From a virus: a stretch of 20,347 nucleotides of DNA. The DNA is taken from the IMG/VR virus record IMGVR_UViG_3300030103_001587, positions 1 to 20,347 of that record; one strand, given 5' to 3'. Shown here piece after piece: positions 4,109-9,652 of this stretch (positions are counted from its first letter, which is position 1; each line of letters starts with the position of its first letter). Both the position numbers and the translations under genes were made by a program. The notes under the pieces were generated by a model. That model saw nothing but the letters and a program-made list of their open reading frames with translations, had not been told where the DNA came from and did no database searches.

Positions 4109-6364
4109 ATGAGTATTCCAGAGGTATTTTTTAGGGAAACTATTGATATAAATAGATACAGTAATGCCGTATCAGTAGATCTAGTTAGAACTTACAATGA
4201 CGTTATTTTACTTGCAGCAAGAAAGCTCAATGCAATAAATATCAGACAGGCAAAGGCTGGAGAAGGTGTAGTCATAGCACCGCAAACTAAAAAAAGATTG
4301 AGGGCAATCATAGCTCAGTCAAAAAGTAGTCTGGATAAATGGTCTAAGACTTCAACAAAGAAGATGATAAAAGAGATTGAAGGTTTGGCAAAGGTACAGG
4401 CTGGATTTATAGAGGGCGAACTGAAAAAAGCTGTAAAATCAGGAAATATTCCCATCAATTCAGTAGCTGTTAGTTCTAAATATGCAGAGTCGTTTGTCAC
4501 AACAGATCCCACAAAGGTAAACATATTTACAAGCAAGCAATTTACAGAAGATGATTTTAAGAAGTTTGGCTCTGGAAAGTTTGAACTTACTGCAAGACAA
4601 GGTGCAATGCAGACCTTACCAAATGGAGAAACAGTAGAGAAAGCATTTAGAGGTATAGCAACAAGACAACAGGAGGGTTTAGCTAGGACTATCAGACAGG
4701 GTGTATTTAGTGGAGAGTCAACACAGCAGATAGCAAGTCGAATGATAGGTAGGCTGGAGTTTGGACAGAGGGGAAGCGTTAGACAGATAGCACAAGCTGG
4801 TGGTGAACTTACAAAATTAGCTAATCATCAGATACAAACTATTGTCAGAACATCTGTAAACCAAGTCCAGAACCAAGCATCACAGGCTGTTTATGCAGCT
4901 AACAGTAAGGTCGCACCAAAGTATGAATATGTTGCAACGCTTGATTCAAAAACCAGTCCAATATGTAAAAGACTTGATGGTAGAAAGTTTGAATACAACA
5001 AAGGCCCTACACCGCCACAGCATTTTAACTGCCGATCTACTACTGTTCCTGTTGTTGATTATGCAGGGTTAAAGAAACAAAAAGGATTTGAGGATCTAAC
5101 ACCGCCACCCAAAGGCAAAGTTGTAACCCGACCTACAGGAGAGGGGACTGGTAGAGTACCACAGGACACTCAGTATGGTGACTGGCTTTTAGGGCAAGAT
5201 AAGAAACTAAAGGTCAAGACTTTAGGTAATGAACAGAAGGTAAGATATTTTGAACGCTTGGCAAAGAAGGAAGGGTCAGGTCAGAAGGCTATAAGAAAGA
5301 TGGTGAGGGAAGATGGAAGCGAAAGAAGTTTGAAGGACTTGGAGAGATTGTATGGTAAGCCCAGTGATATAACGATCAAGATACCAAAGCCTAAGCCTGT
5401 AACTAAACCTGTGGCGTTTGAGAGAAGGCTAGTTGACTCAAGTCCAGAGCAACTAAGAAAAGCTGGCAAAGGTTTGATTGATGAAGTGGGTGGACTTGAT
5501 GTTGATAAACTTAAAAAACTTGAGGCTGAATTTAAAGTTGCTGCGAAAGAGGCAGCTAGAGATATGAGTGCTTTTGATAAATTTGAAAAAGTTAAAAAGA
5601 ATTACTTTGATTTCAGAGAAAAATTTGAAACTAGATTAACTACTTTGAGAAATAAAATGCTTGAAACGACTCTAAATGATGCACAAGTAAATAAATATAT
5701 TAAAAATACAAAGATTACAACATGGAACGCTGCTCAGAAAACAGAAATCAGAGGTCAGTTAGATGAATATATAAGAATGTTTAATGGTAATGGTTTTATT
5801 GATGCTGAAAATGGAGTTCCAGCTATAACAAAAATTGGTAAAGCAAGCAGAGCATCTAATTCACACTGGAAAGGTTCTATTACTACACAACTTAATAGAC
5901 AAGGAAAGATTAGTAAATCTACAACATTCCACGAAATCACTCATTCAGTGGAAGTTATGAACCCTAAACTAAATAATTATATGAATGAATGGAAATTTAA
6001 AAAGGGATTTACCGATAATGCAAAGATAAAGGAAGTTATCCATAACAAAAGAGCTTTTCCTGAGTCTGGTGCAATTGACAGGGCTGCTGGTAAGCCAATT
6101 TATAAACTCAAAGATATAACAAATATTAGGTATCAACCAAGAGAAAAAGCATTTGTTGACAAGTATTTAGATCCTTATATGGGGAAAAAATATGAACCAT
6201 ATGATTTTTCAAGATTTGGAATAAAAGAAAAACTTGAATCATCTGAAGTTTTAACAATGACTGTCCAACAGTTTGGAAAAGTAGAAAATATGGCTAAATT
6301 ATATAGAGAACACCCAGAACTGTTTGAGTTAATTGTAGGTATGTCTAGGGCAAAGGGTCTATAG
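4109..6364 (+). CDS. MuF/SPP1 gp7-type minor head protein fused to a zinc-metallopeptidase (HExxH) domain
   Basis: A 751-residue fusion. Residues 1-320 are the head-morphogenesis domain that sits with the portal inside the capsid; its signature is at 273-310, YEYVATLDSKTSPICKRLDG then PPQHFNCRS, with Cys286, His305 and Cys308. Residues 350-415 (TQYGDWLLGQ onward) form a linker domain common in these proteins. Residues 440-560 are helical and charged, likely coiled coil. The end, 560-751, has STTFHEITHSVE with HEITH at 608-612 and a downstream ESSEVLTM with Glu713, the expected two His, catalytic Glu and third acidic ligand of a zincin. Minor head proteins with variable C-terminal enzymes are known from temperate phages, some as toxins. 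Here the domain could be a maturation protease or an ejected effector. A minus-strand gene overlaps its 3-prime end. Confidence 0.88.
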   Translation: MSIPEVFFRETIDINRYSNAVSVDLVRTYNDVILLAARKLNAINIRQAKAGEGVVIAPQTKKRLRAIIAQSKSSLDKWSKTSTKKMIKEIEGLAKVQAGFIEGELKKAVKSGNIPINSVAVSSKYAESFVTTDPTKVNIFTSKQFTEDDFKKFGSGKFELTARQGAMQTLPNGETVEKAFRGIATRQQEGLARTIRQGVFSGESTQQIASRMIGRLEFGQRGSVRQIAQAGGELTKLANHQIQTIVRTSVNQVQNQASQAVYAANSKVAPKYEYVATLDSKTSPICKRLDGRKFEYNKGPTPPQHFNCRSTTVPVVDYAGLKKQKGFEDLTPPPKGKVVTRPTGEGTGRVPQDTQYGDWLLGQDKKLKVKTLGNEQKVRYFERLAKKEGSGQKAIRKMVREDGSERSLKDLERLYGKPSDITIKIPKPKPVTKPVAFERRLVDSSPEQLRKAGKGLIDEVGGLDVDKLKKLEAEFKVAAKEAARDMSAFDKFEKVKKNYFDFREKFETRLTTLRNKMLETTLNDAQVNKYIKNTKITTWNAAQKTEIRGQLDEYIRMFNGNGFIDAENGVPAITKIGKASRASNSHWKGSITTQLNRQGKISKSTTFHEITHSVEVMNPKLNNYMNEWKFKKGFTDNAKIKEVIHNKRAFPESGAIDRAAGKPIYKLKDITNIRYQPREKAFVDKYLDPYMGKKYEPYDFSRFGIKEKLESSEVLTMTVQQFGKVENMAKLYREHPELFELIVGMSRAKGL

Positions 6365-6647
6365 CATATCCAGTTGTATAACTTTTTAAATCTTTGACAG
6401 CTTGTAGTCTTGATTTTTCTGGCACTTTTACGTTTGACAACCCAACTGAGTTAACGGCTGCATTAATTACATCTGCAATATCACAACTGTTTTTATCAAA
6501 TATATGACCATGAACACCATATAGTCCCTCTCTTACATCATTTTCCCAAAGCTCAACGGCATCTTTTGAACCTACAGCCTTTGCTGTTTTATTAGAATGT
6601 TGAATCTCAATATCCCCTAATGGGGTGGTGATAGTTATAGTAAGCAT
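6345..6647 (-). CDS. Small minus-strand protein, convergent with the minor head gene, unknown function
   Basis: This is the only credible gene on the minus strand. It encodes 100 residues: a beta-rich start (MLTITITTPLGDIEI), a helix (DAVELWENDVREG), then a conserved-looking LYGVHGHIFD turn and two further helices. The + strand from 6365 to 6662 has no competing reading frame, which would be the only non-coding hole of this size in the window, so the minus ORF is likely real. Its last 20 nt overlap antiparallel with the end of the minor head-metallopeptidase gene. No Shine-Dalgarno is seen before its ATG, and possible promoter elements upstream are weak. It may be an inhibitor, chaperone or partner of the fused domain, or an unrelated cargo gene; function is unassigned. 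Confidence 0.65.
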   Translation of the reverse strand: MLTITITTPLGDIEIQHSNKTAKAVGSKDAVELWENDVREGLYGVHGHIFDKNSCDIADVINAAVNSVGLSNVKVPEKSRLQAVKDLKSYTTGYAIDPLP

Positions 6648-6662
6648 AGTTGTAGTTTAGTT

Positions 6663-6794
6663 ATGCCACTTAAAAAAGGCAAATCACAAAAGGCTATCTT
6701 TGGCAATATACGTTTGCTGATGAAAGAGGGCAAGACATTAAAACAAGCACAGGCAATAGCTTTATCGACTGCTAAAAAACGCAAAAGGAAGTAA
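6663..6794 (+). CDS. Small basic phage protein with KQAxAIALS motif
   Basis: A 43-residue protein, start ATG 6663, stop TAA 6792-6794. The sequence MPLKKGKSQKAIFGNIRLLM followed by KEGKTLKQAQAIALSTAKKR resembles a very common family of short phage proteins that begin MPLxKGxS and end with a K-Q-A-x-A-I-A-L-S helix and lysines; the function of that family is unknown. It starts 16 nt from the oppositely oriented start of the minus-strand gene, so the space between the two starts is a short divergent region. It is the first of seven tiny + strand genes placed between the minor head and scaffold genes. Confidence 0.75.
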   Translation: MPLKKGKSQKAIFGNIRLLMKEGKTLKQAQAIALSTAKKRKRK

Positions 6795-6819
6795 TATAAA
6801 GACAGCTACTTTTATTGTT

Positions 6820-6894
6820 ATGCCTAAGGGTGTTGGTTATGGTTCTATGAAACCAAAGGGAACAAAGAAGAAAAAGAAAGGAGGCAAAAAGTAA
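6820..6894 (+). CDS. 24-residue lysine-rich microprotein
   Basis: Start ATG 6820, stop TAA 6892-6894. The peptide begins MPKGVGYGSMKPKG and ends in a run of lysines interrupted by glycines; 10 of 24 residues are Lys. Short proteins starting MPKGxGYG with a basic tail recur among phages, in my recollection, without known function. The next start overlaps its stop (TAATG), the coupling style used elsewhere in the operon, and a purine-rich stretch (AAAGGAGG at 6878-6885) lies within the gene at good distance to serve the next start. Its size means that coding status is inferred mainly from context. Confidence 0.5.
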   Translation: MPKGVGYGSMKPKGTKKKKKGGKK

Positions 6895-6983
6895 TGGGAT
6901 ATATTTTTAAGGTACAGGGCGAAGAGGAAACAAAAAAGCCCAAAGAAACCAAGCCCACTGCTAAAAAGAAAACTAAGAAGTGA
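6894..6983 (+). CDS. 29-residue basic microprotein
   Basis: Start ATG 6894 overlapping the previous stop, stop TGA 6981-6983 overlapping the next GTG start (GTGA). It encodes MGYIFKVQGEEETKKPKETK followed by a Lys/Thr-rich tail. A ribosome binding sequence AAAGGAGG sits about 8 nt before the ATG, one of the best in the window, which supports translation. No known domain. It forms part of the lysine-rich microprotein cassette. Confidence 0.5.
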   Translation: MGYIFKVQGEEETKKPKETKPTAKKKTKK

Positions 6984-7207
6984 CTAGAAAACTAAGGCGA
7001 GTTCCAAAGGACAAAAAGACAGGTGTTCCCAAAAAATATCTGTCTGGTTCTAAAAACAGGTCTGCGAAAGCGGCTGAGATAAAGCGAACTGCCGAAGCTT
7101 ATAGAAAAGGAGAGTATATTGATATAAAAGCTGTATCTAAATCACGCACCAAACAAAATGTCACAGGCAAAAAGAAGAAAACCACTAAGCGAAAAAGTAA
7201 AAGGTAG
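6980..7207 (+). CDS. Small basic phage protein (VPKKYLSG type, possibly DUF5824-like)
   Basis: A 75-residue protein beginning at GTG 6980. The N-terminal part, TRKLRRVPKDKKTGVPKKYL followed by SGSKNRSAKAAEIKRTAEAY, resembles short phage proteins with a VPKKY(L/V)SG motif and a helix ending in YRKG; I think of DUF5824, but that name is from memory and unconfirmed. The C-terminal 20 residues are nearly all Lys, Arg and Thr. That tail is encoded by the same DNA as the start of the next gene, in another frame (50-nt overlap). Strong positive charge suggests nucleic acid or capsid-interior binding, as inference. Confidence 0.7.
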   Translation: MTRKLRRVPKDKKTGVPKKYLSGSKNRSAKAAEIKRTAEAYRKGEYIDIKAVSKSRTKQNVTGKKKKTTKRKSKR

Positions 7208-7415
7208 TCTCAAAAAAAAAGCTGATGGGACTAAGTTTTTTTATGGAGAACTTGCAGAAGTTTATCGCAAGGGACAAGGTGCTTACCTTTCTGCTGGATC
7301 AAGAAATGTTCCTATGGGTGCGTGGGCTATGGGCAGAGTAAACAGCTACATGAGAGGTGATAAAGCAAGAACAGCAGACGCAGCTATCTACAACAAATAC
7401 CAAAAAAGAAGATGA
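7158..7415 (+). CDS. Small phage protein with AWAMGRVNSYMRG motif (DUF5872-like)
   Basis: An 85-residue protein. Residues 18-85 include LKKKADGTKFFYGELAEVYR, then KGQGAYLSAGSRNVPMGAWA and MGRVNSYMRG, ending with ARTADAAIYNKYQKRR. This matches a widespread family of short proteins in phages (Y-R-(K/R)-G, W-A-x-x-R-V-N-S, A-D-A) of unknown function; DUF5872 is my best guess for the name. The ATG at 7158 lies 50 nt inside the previous gene in a different frame. Shorter starts would remove the SEKVKGSLKKKA lead-in that family members usually have, so I keep this start. The stop overlaps the next ATG (ATGA). Confidence 0.75.
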   Translation: MSQAKRRKPLSEKVKGSLKKKADGTKFFYGELAEVYRKGQGAYLSAGSRNVPMGAWAMGRVNSYMRGDKARTADAAIYNKYQKRR

Positions 7416-7567
7416 AACTTACTACCAGACAAAAAAACACACTTGCAAAGCACCAGAAGGCTCATGGTCACACAAAGGCTCACATGGAATATATGAAACG
7501 CAAGATGAGAGAAGGTGTTTCATTTACTGAAGCTCATAGAATGGCTATGAGGCAAAAAGGCAAATGA
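7412..7567 (+). CDS. 51-residue His/Lys-rich small phage protein
   Basis: Start ATG 7412 (ATGA overlap with the previous stop) and stop TGA 7565-7567, which overlaps the next start. The sequence starts MKLTTRQKNTLAKHQKAHGH and continues TKAHMEYMKRKMREGVSFTE with a final AHRMAMRQKGK. It resembles recurrent short phage proteins of the form LTxxQxxxLxxH...HMxxMxxxMxxGxxFxxAHxxA, function unknown. Six histidines in 51 residues might bind a metal, but no defined site is visible. Perfect packing between its neighbours supports it being a real gene. Confidence 0.68.
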   Translation: MKLTTRQKNTLAKHQKAHGHTKAHMEYMKRKMREGVSFTEAHRMAMRQKGK

Positions 7568-7845
7568 GTGATCCTAGACTCAAAAGATTTGGATTGTCTG
7601 GTTTCAACAAACCAAAAAGAACCCCATCACACCCAACAAAGTCTCACGTTGTTCTTGCAAAAGAAGGCGATAAAGTTAAATTAATTAGGTTTGGTATGCA
7701 AGGGGCAAAGACTAAACCGCCTAGAAAGGGAGAATCAGAGGCAGACAAAGCAAAACGCAAGAGTTTTAAGGCTAGACACGCTAAAAATATTGCCAAAGGT
7801 AAAATGTCAGCAGCTTTTTGGGCAGACAGAACAAAGTGGAGCTAA
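7564..7845 (+). CDS. Conserved small phage protein (KRTPSHPTKSH...KGKMSAAFWADxxKW)
   Basis: A 93-residue protein with strongly recognisable motifs: SGFNKPKRTPSHPTKSHVVL near residue 12, AKEGDKVKLIRFGMQGAKT, and FKARHAKNIAKGKMSAAFWA followed by DRTKW at the end. Proteins of this type are frequent in phages, including marine cyanophages, and also in T4-like genomes, but I know of no established function. It is basic and soluble, with no signal peptide. It overlaps the upstream stop by ATGA. After it there is a 29-nt AT-rich spacer before the scaffold gene, ending the microprotein cassette. Confidence 0.85.
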   Translation: MSDPRLKRFGLSGFNKPKRTPSHPTKSHVVLAKEGDKVKLIRFGMQGAKTKPPRKGESEADKAKRKSFKARHAKNIAKGKMSAAFWADRTKWS

Positions 7846-7874
7846 TATTGTGAATAATTGTAAATTTTTTATTT

Positions 7875-8546
7875 ATGGCTGACGAACCAATCAAACCAAA
7901 TCCACCTGTAGATAGTGCAGCGTTGATGGCAGAAGTTGAAGCACTCAGAAAAAGCAACAGAGAAATCTTAGACGATTACAAAAAAGCAAAGGAGGCGGCA
8001 AAAGCTGTACCACCAGATGTTGATGTAGATGCTCTAATTGCTTTTAAACAACAAAAGGAACAGGAAGAACTTGAGGCAAAAGGCAGATATGATGAAGCGA
8101 TTGCTAAACAGGCACAGCAGTATCGTGATGCTGAAGAGGCTAAGAACAAAAGAATCCAAGAGCTAGAAGCTAGACAAAGACAACTTGAAGTTGAAGCCCC
8201 AGCAGTGACAGCCCTTGCTGATGTTGTACACGATCCCCAATATGTACTATCTCGCATCAGTAAGGATCAACTTGCAAGAGAAGCAGATGGGACAGTTGTT
8301 GTAGTTGATGGATACAACAGGACTCCAGTTAAAGATTGGGCAATGTCAAAAATGCCAGCATGGGTACAGAAGAACCCAAGACCTCAAGGCGGTGGAGCAA
8401 CGACAACTAAAGTTCAGACTGAAACAGTGGCTGCTGGTGAAAAGAACCCCTTTGCGAAGGAATCTTTTAACCTTACAGAGCAAAGTAGGTTATATAGAAC
8501 AGATATAAATAAATATAATATGCTCAAAAACGCAGTTAGCGGTTAG
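7875..8546 (+). CDS. Scaffolding protein
   Basis: A 223-residue, highly charged and helical protein that would direct assembly of the capsid protein into a procapsid and then leave. Residues about 15-115 are coiled coil rich in Glu, Lys, Ala and Gln (LMAEVEALRKSN, then EQEELEAKGRYDEAIAKQAQ, RIQELEARQRQLEVE). The C-terminal end, NPFAKESFNLTEQSRLYRTD then NKYNMLKNA, is the short basic helical motif through which such scaffolds bind coat protein. It lies immediately upstream of the major capsid gene, as expected. No protease domain is fused to it, unlike many HK97-type systems. The start ATG 7875 is preceded by a U-rich leader without a Shine-Dalgarno. Confidence 0.82.
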   Translation: MADEPIKPNPPVDSAALMAEVEALRKSNREILDDYKKAKEAAKAVPPDVDVDALIAFKQQKEQEELEAKGRYDEAIAKQAQQYRDAEEAKNKRIQELEARQRQLEVEAPAVTALADVVHDPQYVLSRISKDQLAREADGTVVVVDGYNRTPVKDWAMSKMPAWVQKNPRPQGGGATTTKVQTETVAAGEKNPFAKESFNLTEQSRLYRTDINKYNMLKNAVSG

Positions 8547-8553
8547 TATAGTA

Positions 8554-8588
8554 ACAACGTGGTTGTGCCATGTCAGAGGTTGTGCCTC
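8554..8588 (+). promoter_or_regulatory. Two small hairpins and a 9-nt direct repeat ahead of the capsid gene
   Basis: The 68-nt spacer before the major capsid gene contains ACAAC(8554-8558)/GTTGT(8562-8566) with a 3-nt loop, and GAGG(8576-8579)/CCTC(8585-8588) with a 5-nt loop. GGTTGTGCC occurs twice, at 8561-8569 and 8578-8586, a 17-nt period. The segment is richer in G and C than its surroundings and carries no credible gene. It may be a leader structure, processing site or operator for capsid expression. Stems are short, so chance is possible. Confidence 0.35.
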
Positions 8589-8614
8589 GAAGTAAACATA
8601 TTAATTAAATTCTA

Positions 8615-9652
8615 ATGGCAACATTAAGATCGGATTTAATTATTCCTGAGGTGTTTACTCCCTACTTAATCGAAGCGACAACTCAAACTGACAGCTTCTT
8701 ACAGAGTGGGGTAGTGCAACCTTTGGCAGAATTAAATTTATCCGCAGAACGTGGGGGCGATTTCGTCAAGCTTCCTTTTTATAAAGCAAATTTATCTGGA
8801 GATTTTGAAGTCTTAACAGACTCAACATCATTAACACCTAGCAAGATCACTGCTGACAACCAGATTGGAGTTGTACTTCATAGAGGTAGAGCTTTCAGTT
8901 CTAGAGATTTAGCTTCACTTGCAGTAGGTGGTGGCATAGATCCTATGGCTGCTATTGCTCAGAAGATGGCTGCTTATGTAAACAACCAAAAGCAAAAAGA
9001 TTTGTATTCTTGCTTAACTGGTGCATTTGGATCTATCAACGCAAACTCAAGCAGTTCAGCTTTATTTGATCTAACAATCGACAGTGAGTCAGGTGATTCT
9101 CCTACAGTATTAAGCCCTCGTCATATCGCAAGAGCTAAATCAAAGCTTGGAGATCAAGGCGGCAAGCTTACAGCAATAGCAATGCACTCTAATGTTTATG
9201 GTGATTTGCTTGAGCGTAATATGATTGATCGTATCTACGACAACACAGGCGCACCAGACGGAGATGCTACAGGTGGTAGTACAACTAGAGCTTTTGATGG
9301 CCCTAATGTTGTTGAGACATTTGGTGGTTTAAGAATTATTGTTTCTGACGATATTCCAACAACAGGTTCTGGAGCTTCAACTGAATATTCAACATTCTTC
9401 TTTACACAAGGAGCAGTTGTTACAGGTGAGCAAGCACCAATCAGAACACAAACAGATAGAGACATTCTTGCTCTTGAGGAAGCAATGGCAGTGGATCTCC
9501 ACTATATCTATCACCCTGTTGGATTGAAATATGCAGTGTCTACTGTTAATCCCAACAGAAGCGTTCTCGAAACTGTAGGCTCTTGGTCGAAAGTCTATGA
9601 AACAAAGAATATCGGTATTGTTAGAGCAACTAACGTATCTAATCAGGATTAA
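8615..9652 (+). CDS. Major capsid protein
   Basis: A 345-residue coat protein. The opening MATLRSDLIIPEVFTPYLIE followed by QTDSFLQSGVVQPLAELN, the GGDFVKLPFYKANLSGDFEV segment, SSLTPSKITADNQIGVVLHR with GRAFSSRDLASLA, and the DPMAAIAQKMAAYVNNQKQK helix are typical of a capsid family with an HK97-like fold found in many siphophages. The N-arm, E-loop and long spine helix can be placed in that order. There is no cleavable N-terminal delta domain; the gene begins right at the mature-looking N-terminus, consistent with a separate scaffold gene upstream. The ATG has an A/T-rich leader with no Shine-Dalgarno, although this should be the most highly made protein. Confidence 0.93.
   Translation: MATLRSDLIIPEVFTPYLIEATTQTDSFLQSGVVQPLAELNLSAERGGDFVKLPFYKANLSGDFEVLTDSTSLTPSKITADNQIGVVLHRGRAFSSRDLASLAVGGGIDPMAAIAQKMAAYVNNQKQKDLYSCLTGAFGSINANSSSSALFDLTIDSESGDSPTVLSPRHIARAKSKLGDQGGKLTAIAMHSNVYGDLLERNMIDRIYDNTGAPDGDATGGSTTRAFDGPNVVETFGGLRIIVSDDIPTTGSGASTEYSTFFFTQGAVVTGEQAPIRTQTDRDILALEEAMAVDLHYIYHPVGLKYAVSTVNPNRSVLETVGSWSKVYETKNIGIVRATNVSNQD

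Follow-up and report, generated by a model that had tools for sequence, protein, structure and literature searches.

The window, by which we mean the whole stretch of DNA analysed here, covers 20,347 bases of an IMG/VR virus record that is 20,987 bases long and, judged by its sequence, represents part of the genome of a Prochlorococcus siphophage closely related to MED4-184 and P-HS2. The portal shares 95% identity with those of the Prochlorococcus phages MED4-184, MED4-117 and P-HS2 and 62-65% with those of the Synechococcus phages KBS-S-2A and S-H1. The genes run in the order terminase, portal, MuF minor head protein, a cassette of seven small genes (P1 to P7), scaffold and major capsid protein (MCP), followed by the tail genes (Table 1). 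In MED4-184 and MED4-117 a queuine tRNA-ribosyltransferase gene lies just 5' of the terminase gene (L002:1630-2415). The window gave zero matches to Rfam, and a scan of positions 6000-8700 gave 8 promoter-like sites against 5.6 (sd 2.3) in shuffled sequences and 2 terminator-like sites against 2.1.

Table 1. Cassette genes and flanking features of the window. Locus counts refer to the MCP-keyed loci described in the text.
Feature	Coordinates	Strand	Size	Net charge	Family or domain	Loci	pN/pS	Remarks
MuF minor head protein	4109..6364	+						Upstream of cassette; variable C-terminal domain, residues 541-751, HEITH
Antisense ORF	6345..6647	-	100 aa					Between MuF and P1; goes with this MuF C-terminal type
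P1	6663..6794	+	43 aa	+13	phrog_2423	36/41	0.22	
P2	6820..6894	+	24 aa	+10		31/41	0.02 (94 pairs)	C-terminal lysine run
P3	6894..6983	+	29 aa	+6		36/41	0.20	AAAGGAGG upstream
P4	6980..7207	+	75 aa	+24	phrog_38321	35/41	0.22	GTG start
P5	7158..7415	+	85 aa	+15	phrog_28338; DUF5824 domain	35/41	0.24	
P6	7412..7567	+	51 aa	+11	phrog_31838	36/41	0.16	
P7	7564..7845	+	93 aa	+19	phrog_7595	40/41	0.23	
Head scaffolding protein	7875..8546	+			phrog_206			Downstream of cassette; profile E 2e-28

An earlier sequence-only reading of this DNA had described seven consecutive tiny genes, nearly all strongly basic and packed with ATGA, TAATG or GTGA junctions, and all seven ORFs were recovered with the positions and lengths it gave. 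The description of the junctions holds for four of the six (TAATG at P2/P3, GTGA at P3/P4, ATGA at P5/P6 and P6/P7), but P1 and P2 are separated by a 25-nt gap and P4 and P5 overlap by 50 nt. Every one of the seven is basic and together they carry a net charge of +98 over 400 aa, which is +0.18 to +0.42 per residue for P1 to P7 compared to -0.09 to +0.07 for the 21 other window ORFs that were judged to be genes. That the basicity comes from AT-rich composition alone was rejected, because the GC content of the cassette (39%) is about that of the window (38%) and yet those 21 other ORFs are near neutral. The basicity was also retained in every member of the cassette families that was checked. 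By simple arithmetic, the charge of 100 copies of the set is about 13% of that of the phosphates in a 38.3-kb genome, and with this assumed copy number the neutralisation of DNA by the cassette proteins is not absurd.

The seven are real, conserved and linked genes of the head module. Conservation was surveyed with MCP as the key and not with the cassette, so as to avoid selecting carriers. The best 80 matches were fetched and the 41 of these 80 loci that also hold MuF were counted; since only the best 80 were taken, these 41 loci are close relatives of the window. Presence was counted in this set alone because surveys keyed on P5, P6 or P7 are biased toward cassette carriers. All seven genes were found in order in 28 of the 41 loci. 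One locus (L293) has none of the seven at the threshold used and another (L301) retains P7 alone, and therefore the cassette is not strictly required. Every copy found of each cassette gene has a start codon and is of similar length, with the GTG start of P4 kept in 33 of 35 copies, and the distance from P7 to the scaffold match was 29-42 nt in 39 of 40 P7 loci and 298 nt in the remaining one. All seven genes are under purifying selection, with pN/pS of 0.02-0.24, where the values for P4 and P5 are only rough because these two genes overlap; for scaffold, MCP and portal pN/pS was 0.17, 0.19 and 0.15, respectively. These values led us to reject the possibility that the ORFs are spurious.

Homologues of all seven are present in MED4-184 and MED4-117, in the same order and between MuF and scaffold as in the window, and in P-HS2 homologues of P1, P4, P5, P6 and P7 were found; in these three phages the cassette genes are annotated as hypothetical or are not annotated. 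Between MED4-184 and the window, identity is only 45% for P5 and 56% for P7 but reaches 90-95% for portal, scaffold and P6, the first two being at 94-95%. This strong divergence of P5 and P7 beside well kept neighbours indicates that pieces of the cassette have been swapped. The cassette is interrupted by insertions of about 850-950 nt in L007 and L009, one lying between P6 and P7 and the other between P1 and P2.

The view that several of these proteins belong to recurrent phage families with no function stood up for P1, P4, P5, P6 and P7, each of which matches a PHROG (Table 1). P5 is a DUF5824 (PF19141) domain: all 37 of the 37 aligned members match this family at E<=0.1, the best at 2.1e-14, and the window P5 taken alone scores 17.5 bits, which is below the cutoff of 25. 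The same domain forms the C-terminus of the cytidyltransferase family phrog_3041, which is matched by 15 of the 37 P5 members. DUF5824 is free-standing in the cassette and is carried on a nucleotidyltransferase-like protein in Melnitz-3, L319 and L331. The AlphaFold model of P5 is helical (pLDDT 87.5). For P4, only weak Pfam matches were obtained, in 2 of 17 members. P6 has an HxxxHxHxxxH pattern in which H14, H18, H20 and H24 are invariant in 15 sequences, and this is possibly a metal site.

All 49 of the 49 aligned P7 members belong to phrog_7595, and the window member matches it with an E of 3.7e-41 over positions 6-96 of the 96 of the profile. A search with the window P7 matched at least 600 viral contigs, and P7 is present in 49 phage records that include Synechococcus, Prochlorococcus and Roseobacter-clade phages, HMO-2011, a Vibrio phage and freshwater metagenomic phages. 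A P7 subfamily with paired cysteines (RHxC...YWxC; L391, L392, L385, L387), which the window type does not have, is also very abundant (at least 600 viral contigs). The majority of P7 copies stand alone: among all loci collected, 426 P7 ORFs are shorter than 130 aa, 8 are of 130-200 aa and 6 are of 200 aa or more, including that of Melnitz-3 gp18. Domains of the DUF6321 and DUF5754 type also occur in giant viruses. P7 gave only weak matches below the cutoff to both, at E<=0.1 in 24 of 49 members for DUF6321 (best 0.002; the window member scores 17.3 bits against a cutoff of 28.5) and in 16 of 49 for DUF5754 (best 0.011); the latter is named in two papers on algal and protist viruses.

The profile of phrog_220, a minor head protein and DNA pilot family, was matched by 45 of the 49 P7 members. 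The window P7 aligns to columns 533-604 of this profile and the window MuF to columns 982-1261, and the tie of P7 to this minor head protein family is one at the level of the profile. P7 itself matched no protease family, and there was no match to Peptidase_S78_2 by Pfam profile. The P7 model is a beta-hairpin plus a helix (pLDDT 83.6), but it is uneven, as the mean pLDDT was above 80 in 2 of 5 predictions and near 50 in the other three. In BFVD it matched an XkdF protein (probability 0.89), a ChaB protein (0.89) and a 1393-aa protein (0.87), and the P5 model matched the same ChaB protein (0.99). Against the PDB, the fold of P7 gave no convincing match (best Foldseek E 1.1, best VIA Z 2.9) and neither did that of P5 (best VIA Z 5.3), and by sequence both gave weak hits only (best E 0.2) and no solved relative.

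The domains of P5 and P7 are also found fused to other proteins. The annotated capsid protease GP125 of phage ICP1 has an XkdF-type (Peptidase_S78_2) match at residues 37-160 and a C-terminal P7 domain at residues 184-261, and its gene immediately precedes the scaffold, decoration and coat genes. The window P7 likewise comes directly before scaffold but, unlike GP125, it stands alone as a protein without a protease domain. In another locus (L470:922-1770), a single chain of 283 aa has ChaB (13-57), P7 (58-142) and XkdF (162-279) one after the other, and in this chain as well as in P0002 the protease part is outside the P7 region. In view of these arrangements, P7 is best explained as the free counterpart of a domain that belongs, in other phages, to an XkdF-type capsid-maturation protease. 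Melnitz-3 gp18 is a cytidylyltransferase-like enzyme that bears both the DUF5824 (P5) and the P7 domains, and its gene is near DnaB and not near head genes. In L331 an enzyme is joined to DUF5824, L319 has both DUF5824 and cytidyltransferase PHROG matches, and in phage DSL-LC01 the P5 domain is in a 347-aa protein encoded three genes after the portal.

A neighbourhood survey, which the sequence-only reading had proposed for each family, was carried out in phages outside the clade of the window. Of 142 loci, 3 were excluded as members of this clade, 1 because it lacks P7 and 18 as near-duplicates. On either side of P7, the closest gene encoding at least 90 aa was taken as its neighbour, and genes of the same contigs more than 2.5 kb from P7 served as controls; the scan took in 148 of the 231 neighbours and 124 of the 201 controls. 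PHROG matches were counted per family for the 25 commonest families only, and one protein can count in several of these. On this count, the families of the neighbours were 19 head, packaging or terminase, 0 tail, 2 other named and 4 unnamed, whereas the controls had 9 families of head or packaging, 7 of tail or ejection, 3 with other functions and 6 without a name. The neighbour families include head closure Hc3 (9 proteins), portals, terminases, MuF or minor head proteins and adaptors.

Relatives of the other cassette proteins were counted within P7-keyed loci, in three fetches of 66, 72 and 80 loci from which L010 and L012, two short loci that belong to the window clade, were left out. In these fetches P5 relatives were near P7 in 10, 5 and 6 loci, P4 relatives in 5, 2 and 5, P1 relatives in 15, 3 and 4, and P6 relatives in 1, 2 and 4. 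All 62 of these 62 relatives were on the strand of P7, compared to 151 of the 201 control genes. P4 was accompanied by P5 in 11 of 12 loci (the exception is L424), and P6 was directly 5' of P7 in five (L352, L436, L438, L458 and L463). Relatives of P1, P4, P5, P6 and P7 are thus co-located on one strand in unrelated phages, where P4-P5 and P6-P7 recur as pairs. There are also phages in which P7 is near lysis genes, the terminase or the ends of late operons and not near capsid genes (S-CRES1, CRP-1, SIO1, P12053L and S-EIVl), and in HTVC111P P5 is near a lysozyme gene. Homologues of P7 are nevertheless not scattered at random positions in unrelated genomes, a pattern that would have spoken against a joint role, because its relatives co-locate, its neighbours are enriched in head and packaging genes and its domain is fused to head-maturation proteases.

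The clustering had been taken to suggest a joint role in neutralising or binding DNA in the capsid or in acting on host nucleic acid after injection. The co-located relatives, the head-gene neighbours and the protease fusions lend partial support to a joint role linked to the head, and the data offer no evidence of any effect on host nucleic acid. The reading that we prefer, and to which we give about an even chance, is that the cassette encodes small cationic head-assembly proteins, similar to those of a prohead core, which are made beside the scaffold and of which P7 is the anchor. The genes of this late, order-conserved cassette are probably co-expressed. The set would most likely be taken into the prohead together with scaffold, portal and MuF, as the prohead-core and internal proteins of T4 do, and inside the prohead the basic tails would bind scaffold, incoming DNA, or both. 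Among the candidate fates of the proteins, we would place retention in the virion ahead of charge neutralisation, and the latter ahead of injection.

In T4, small head-related proteins are encoded beside the portal and scaffold genes, and in this respect the T4 prohead-core and internal proteins (gp67, gp68 and IPI-III) are like the cassette, which by the locus and neighbour surveys likewise belongs to the head module, with scaffold adjacent. The small proteins of the T4 core are present at 240-370 copies each, and some of the core proteins are destroyed while others stay and get injected, according to a section of PMC9958956. No sequence relation to the T4 proteins emerged from the searches made with the cassette proteins, whose presence in the prohead is a prediction. 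The T4 prohead core is the closest working model, by analogy and not by membership. In the portions of the literature retrieved, no virion proteomic or binding data were found for these proteins or their hosts, and searches by phage names, DUF names and XkdF or ChaB terms found no paper, among the texts returned, that describes the cassette.

Other explanations have to be weighed against this one. The cassette proteins could be transient assembly factors that link scaffold, portal and shell to one another and are lost, by degradation or expulsion, ahead of DNA entry; the mature virion would then hold none of them. The location between MuF and portal on one side and scaffold on the other fits this, as does the presence of the P7 domain on capsid proteases, and in T4 the gp21 protease cleaves gp67 and gp68 into small peptides, as a passage of PMC9958956 has it. 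However, the strong basicity, kept in every member checked, would also be expected of a DNA-contacting protein, and no separate head protease gene that could act as the degrader was identified in the window; we consider this explanation unlikely. It is quite improbable, in our estimate, that the proteins bind nucleic acid in the host cytoplasm for host takeover, either expressed late or injected, and that their position in the head module is a matter of operon history. Such a role would agree with the high net charge, with the P5 and P7 domains on the cytidylyltransferase-like gp18 of Melnitz-3 and P5 on such enzymes in L319 and L331, and with the effector-like C-terminal domains of the adjoining MuF, but the XkdF protease fusions and the head-module neighbours in unrelated phages point to assembly, and the fold searches with the P5 and P7 models gave no convincing match to a DNA- or RNA-binding fold.

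A further explanation, which we regard as very improbable, is that P5 and P7 serve as loading tags by which a partner (protease, MuF or nucleotidyltransferase) is brought into the prohead, the stand-alone genes being untethered or adaptor forms. One domain is indeed found on several unrelated partners, P5 and P7 are on one chain in Melnitz-3 gp18, and T4 uses a targeting sequence of about 10 residues for the same job (in a passage of PMC9958956), but the gene of the nucleotidyltransferase fusion is near DnaB and nothing marks its product as a virion protein. A bolder form of this idea, to which we assign a low probability, is that P5 and P7 make up a portable capsid-loading system, a modular address into the proheads of tailed phages, with the cassette as the core of the system and swappable MuF effectors among the things loaded. 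It draws on the occurrence of these domains free-standing beside scaffolds, on XkdF proteases (P7), in a MuF-type profile (P7) and on nucleotidyltransferases. Finally, the region may be a permissive spot that collects unrelated small genes without any joint function. The low identity of P5 (45%) and P7 (56%) to those of MED4-184, where portal, scaffold and P6 are at 90-95%, and the large insertions in L007 and L009 are what such a spot might look like. Against it are the order kept in 28 of 41 loci, the recurrence of the same families as neighbours in unrelated phages, all on the strand of P7, and the purifying selection on all seven genes, and we give it only a slim chance.

Two features next to the cassette were omitted from the sequence-only reading, namely the conserved 100-aa antisense ORF and an extension of 211 aa that ends MuF. 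When the ends of MuF were compared in 154 loci, 74 had a short form and the others had extended forms of four C-terminal types, with 37, 29, 13 and 1 members. Types and companion ORFs were re-counted by tblastn over all loci collected. Type A, with a HEIGH motif, was found in 41 loci, 38 of which have a 63-aa ORF; type B, that of the window with HEITH, was found in 32 loci, 18 of which have the antisense 100-aa ORF; and type C was found in 16 loci, all 16 of which have a 53-aa ORF. One 53-aa ORF was found without its type C domain. By our own reading the type C domain is ADP-ribosyltransferase-like, though it has no Pfam match. The C-terminal domain of the window MuF matched no Pfam family, and the MED4-184 form had one match below the cutoff, to the zinc-metallopeptidase toxin family PF07737 (18.5 of 27.4 bits). 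The MuF gene of MED4-117 is split into two overlapping ORFs (L005:10438-12724) and in MED4-184 it is a single ORF. It was also considered whether P5 and P7 alleles track the MuF C-terminal type, and this was not upheld, as the median identities were alike in the three multi-member types.

A MuF N-terminal part, a variable C-terminal domain and a small ORF of its own, the features that mark a MuF polymorphic toxin, are all present here, and MuF with its companion ORF looks like the arrangement of a MuF polymorphic toxin-immunity locus, with the C-terminal domain as a putative toxin. MuF polymorphic toxins were reported in temperate phages only, as worded in a part of a 2017 paper (PMC5576092), and P-HS2 has been used as a lytic phage (in a passage of PMC7852597). 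The genome of MED4-184, however, has an annotated excisionase, which tempers the view that the Prochlorococcus MuF locus is an exception to the temperate-only rule.

A polymorphic MuF with companion genes may be a more striking feature of this locus than the cassette itself. The set is carried by an isolated, cultured phage (P-HS2/MED4-184). The P7 family, phrog_7595, occurs very commonly in aquatic phages as an "unknown", and its fusion to or adjacency with head-maturation proteases gives many proteins annotated as hypothetical a testable place.
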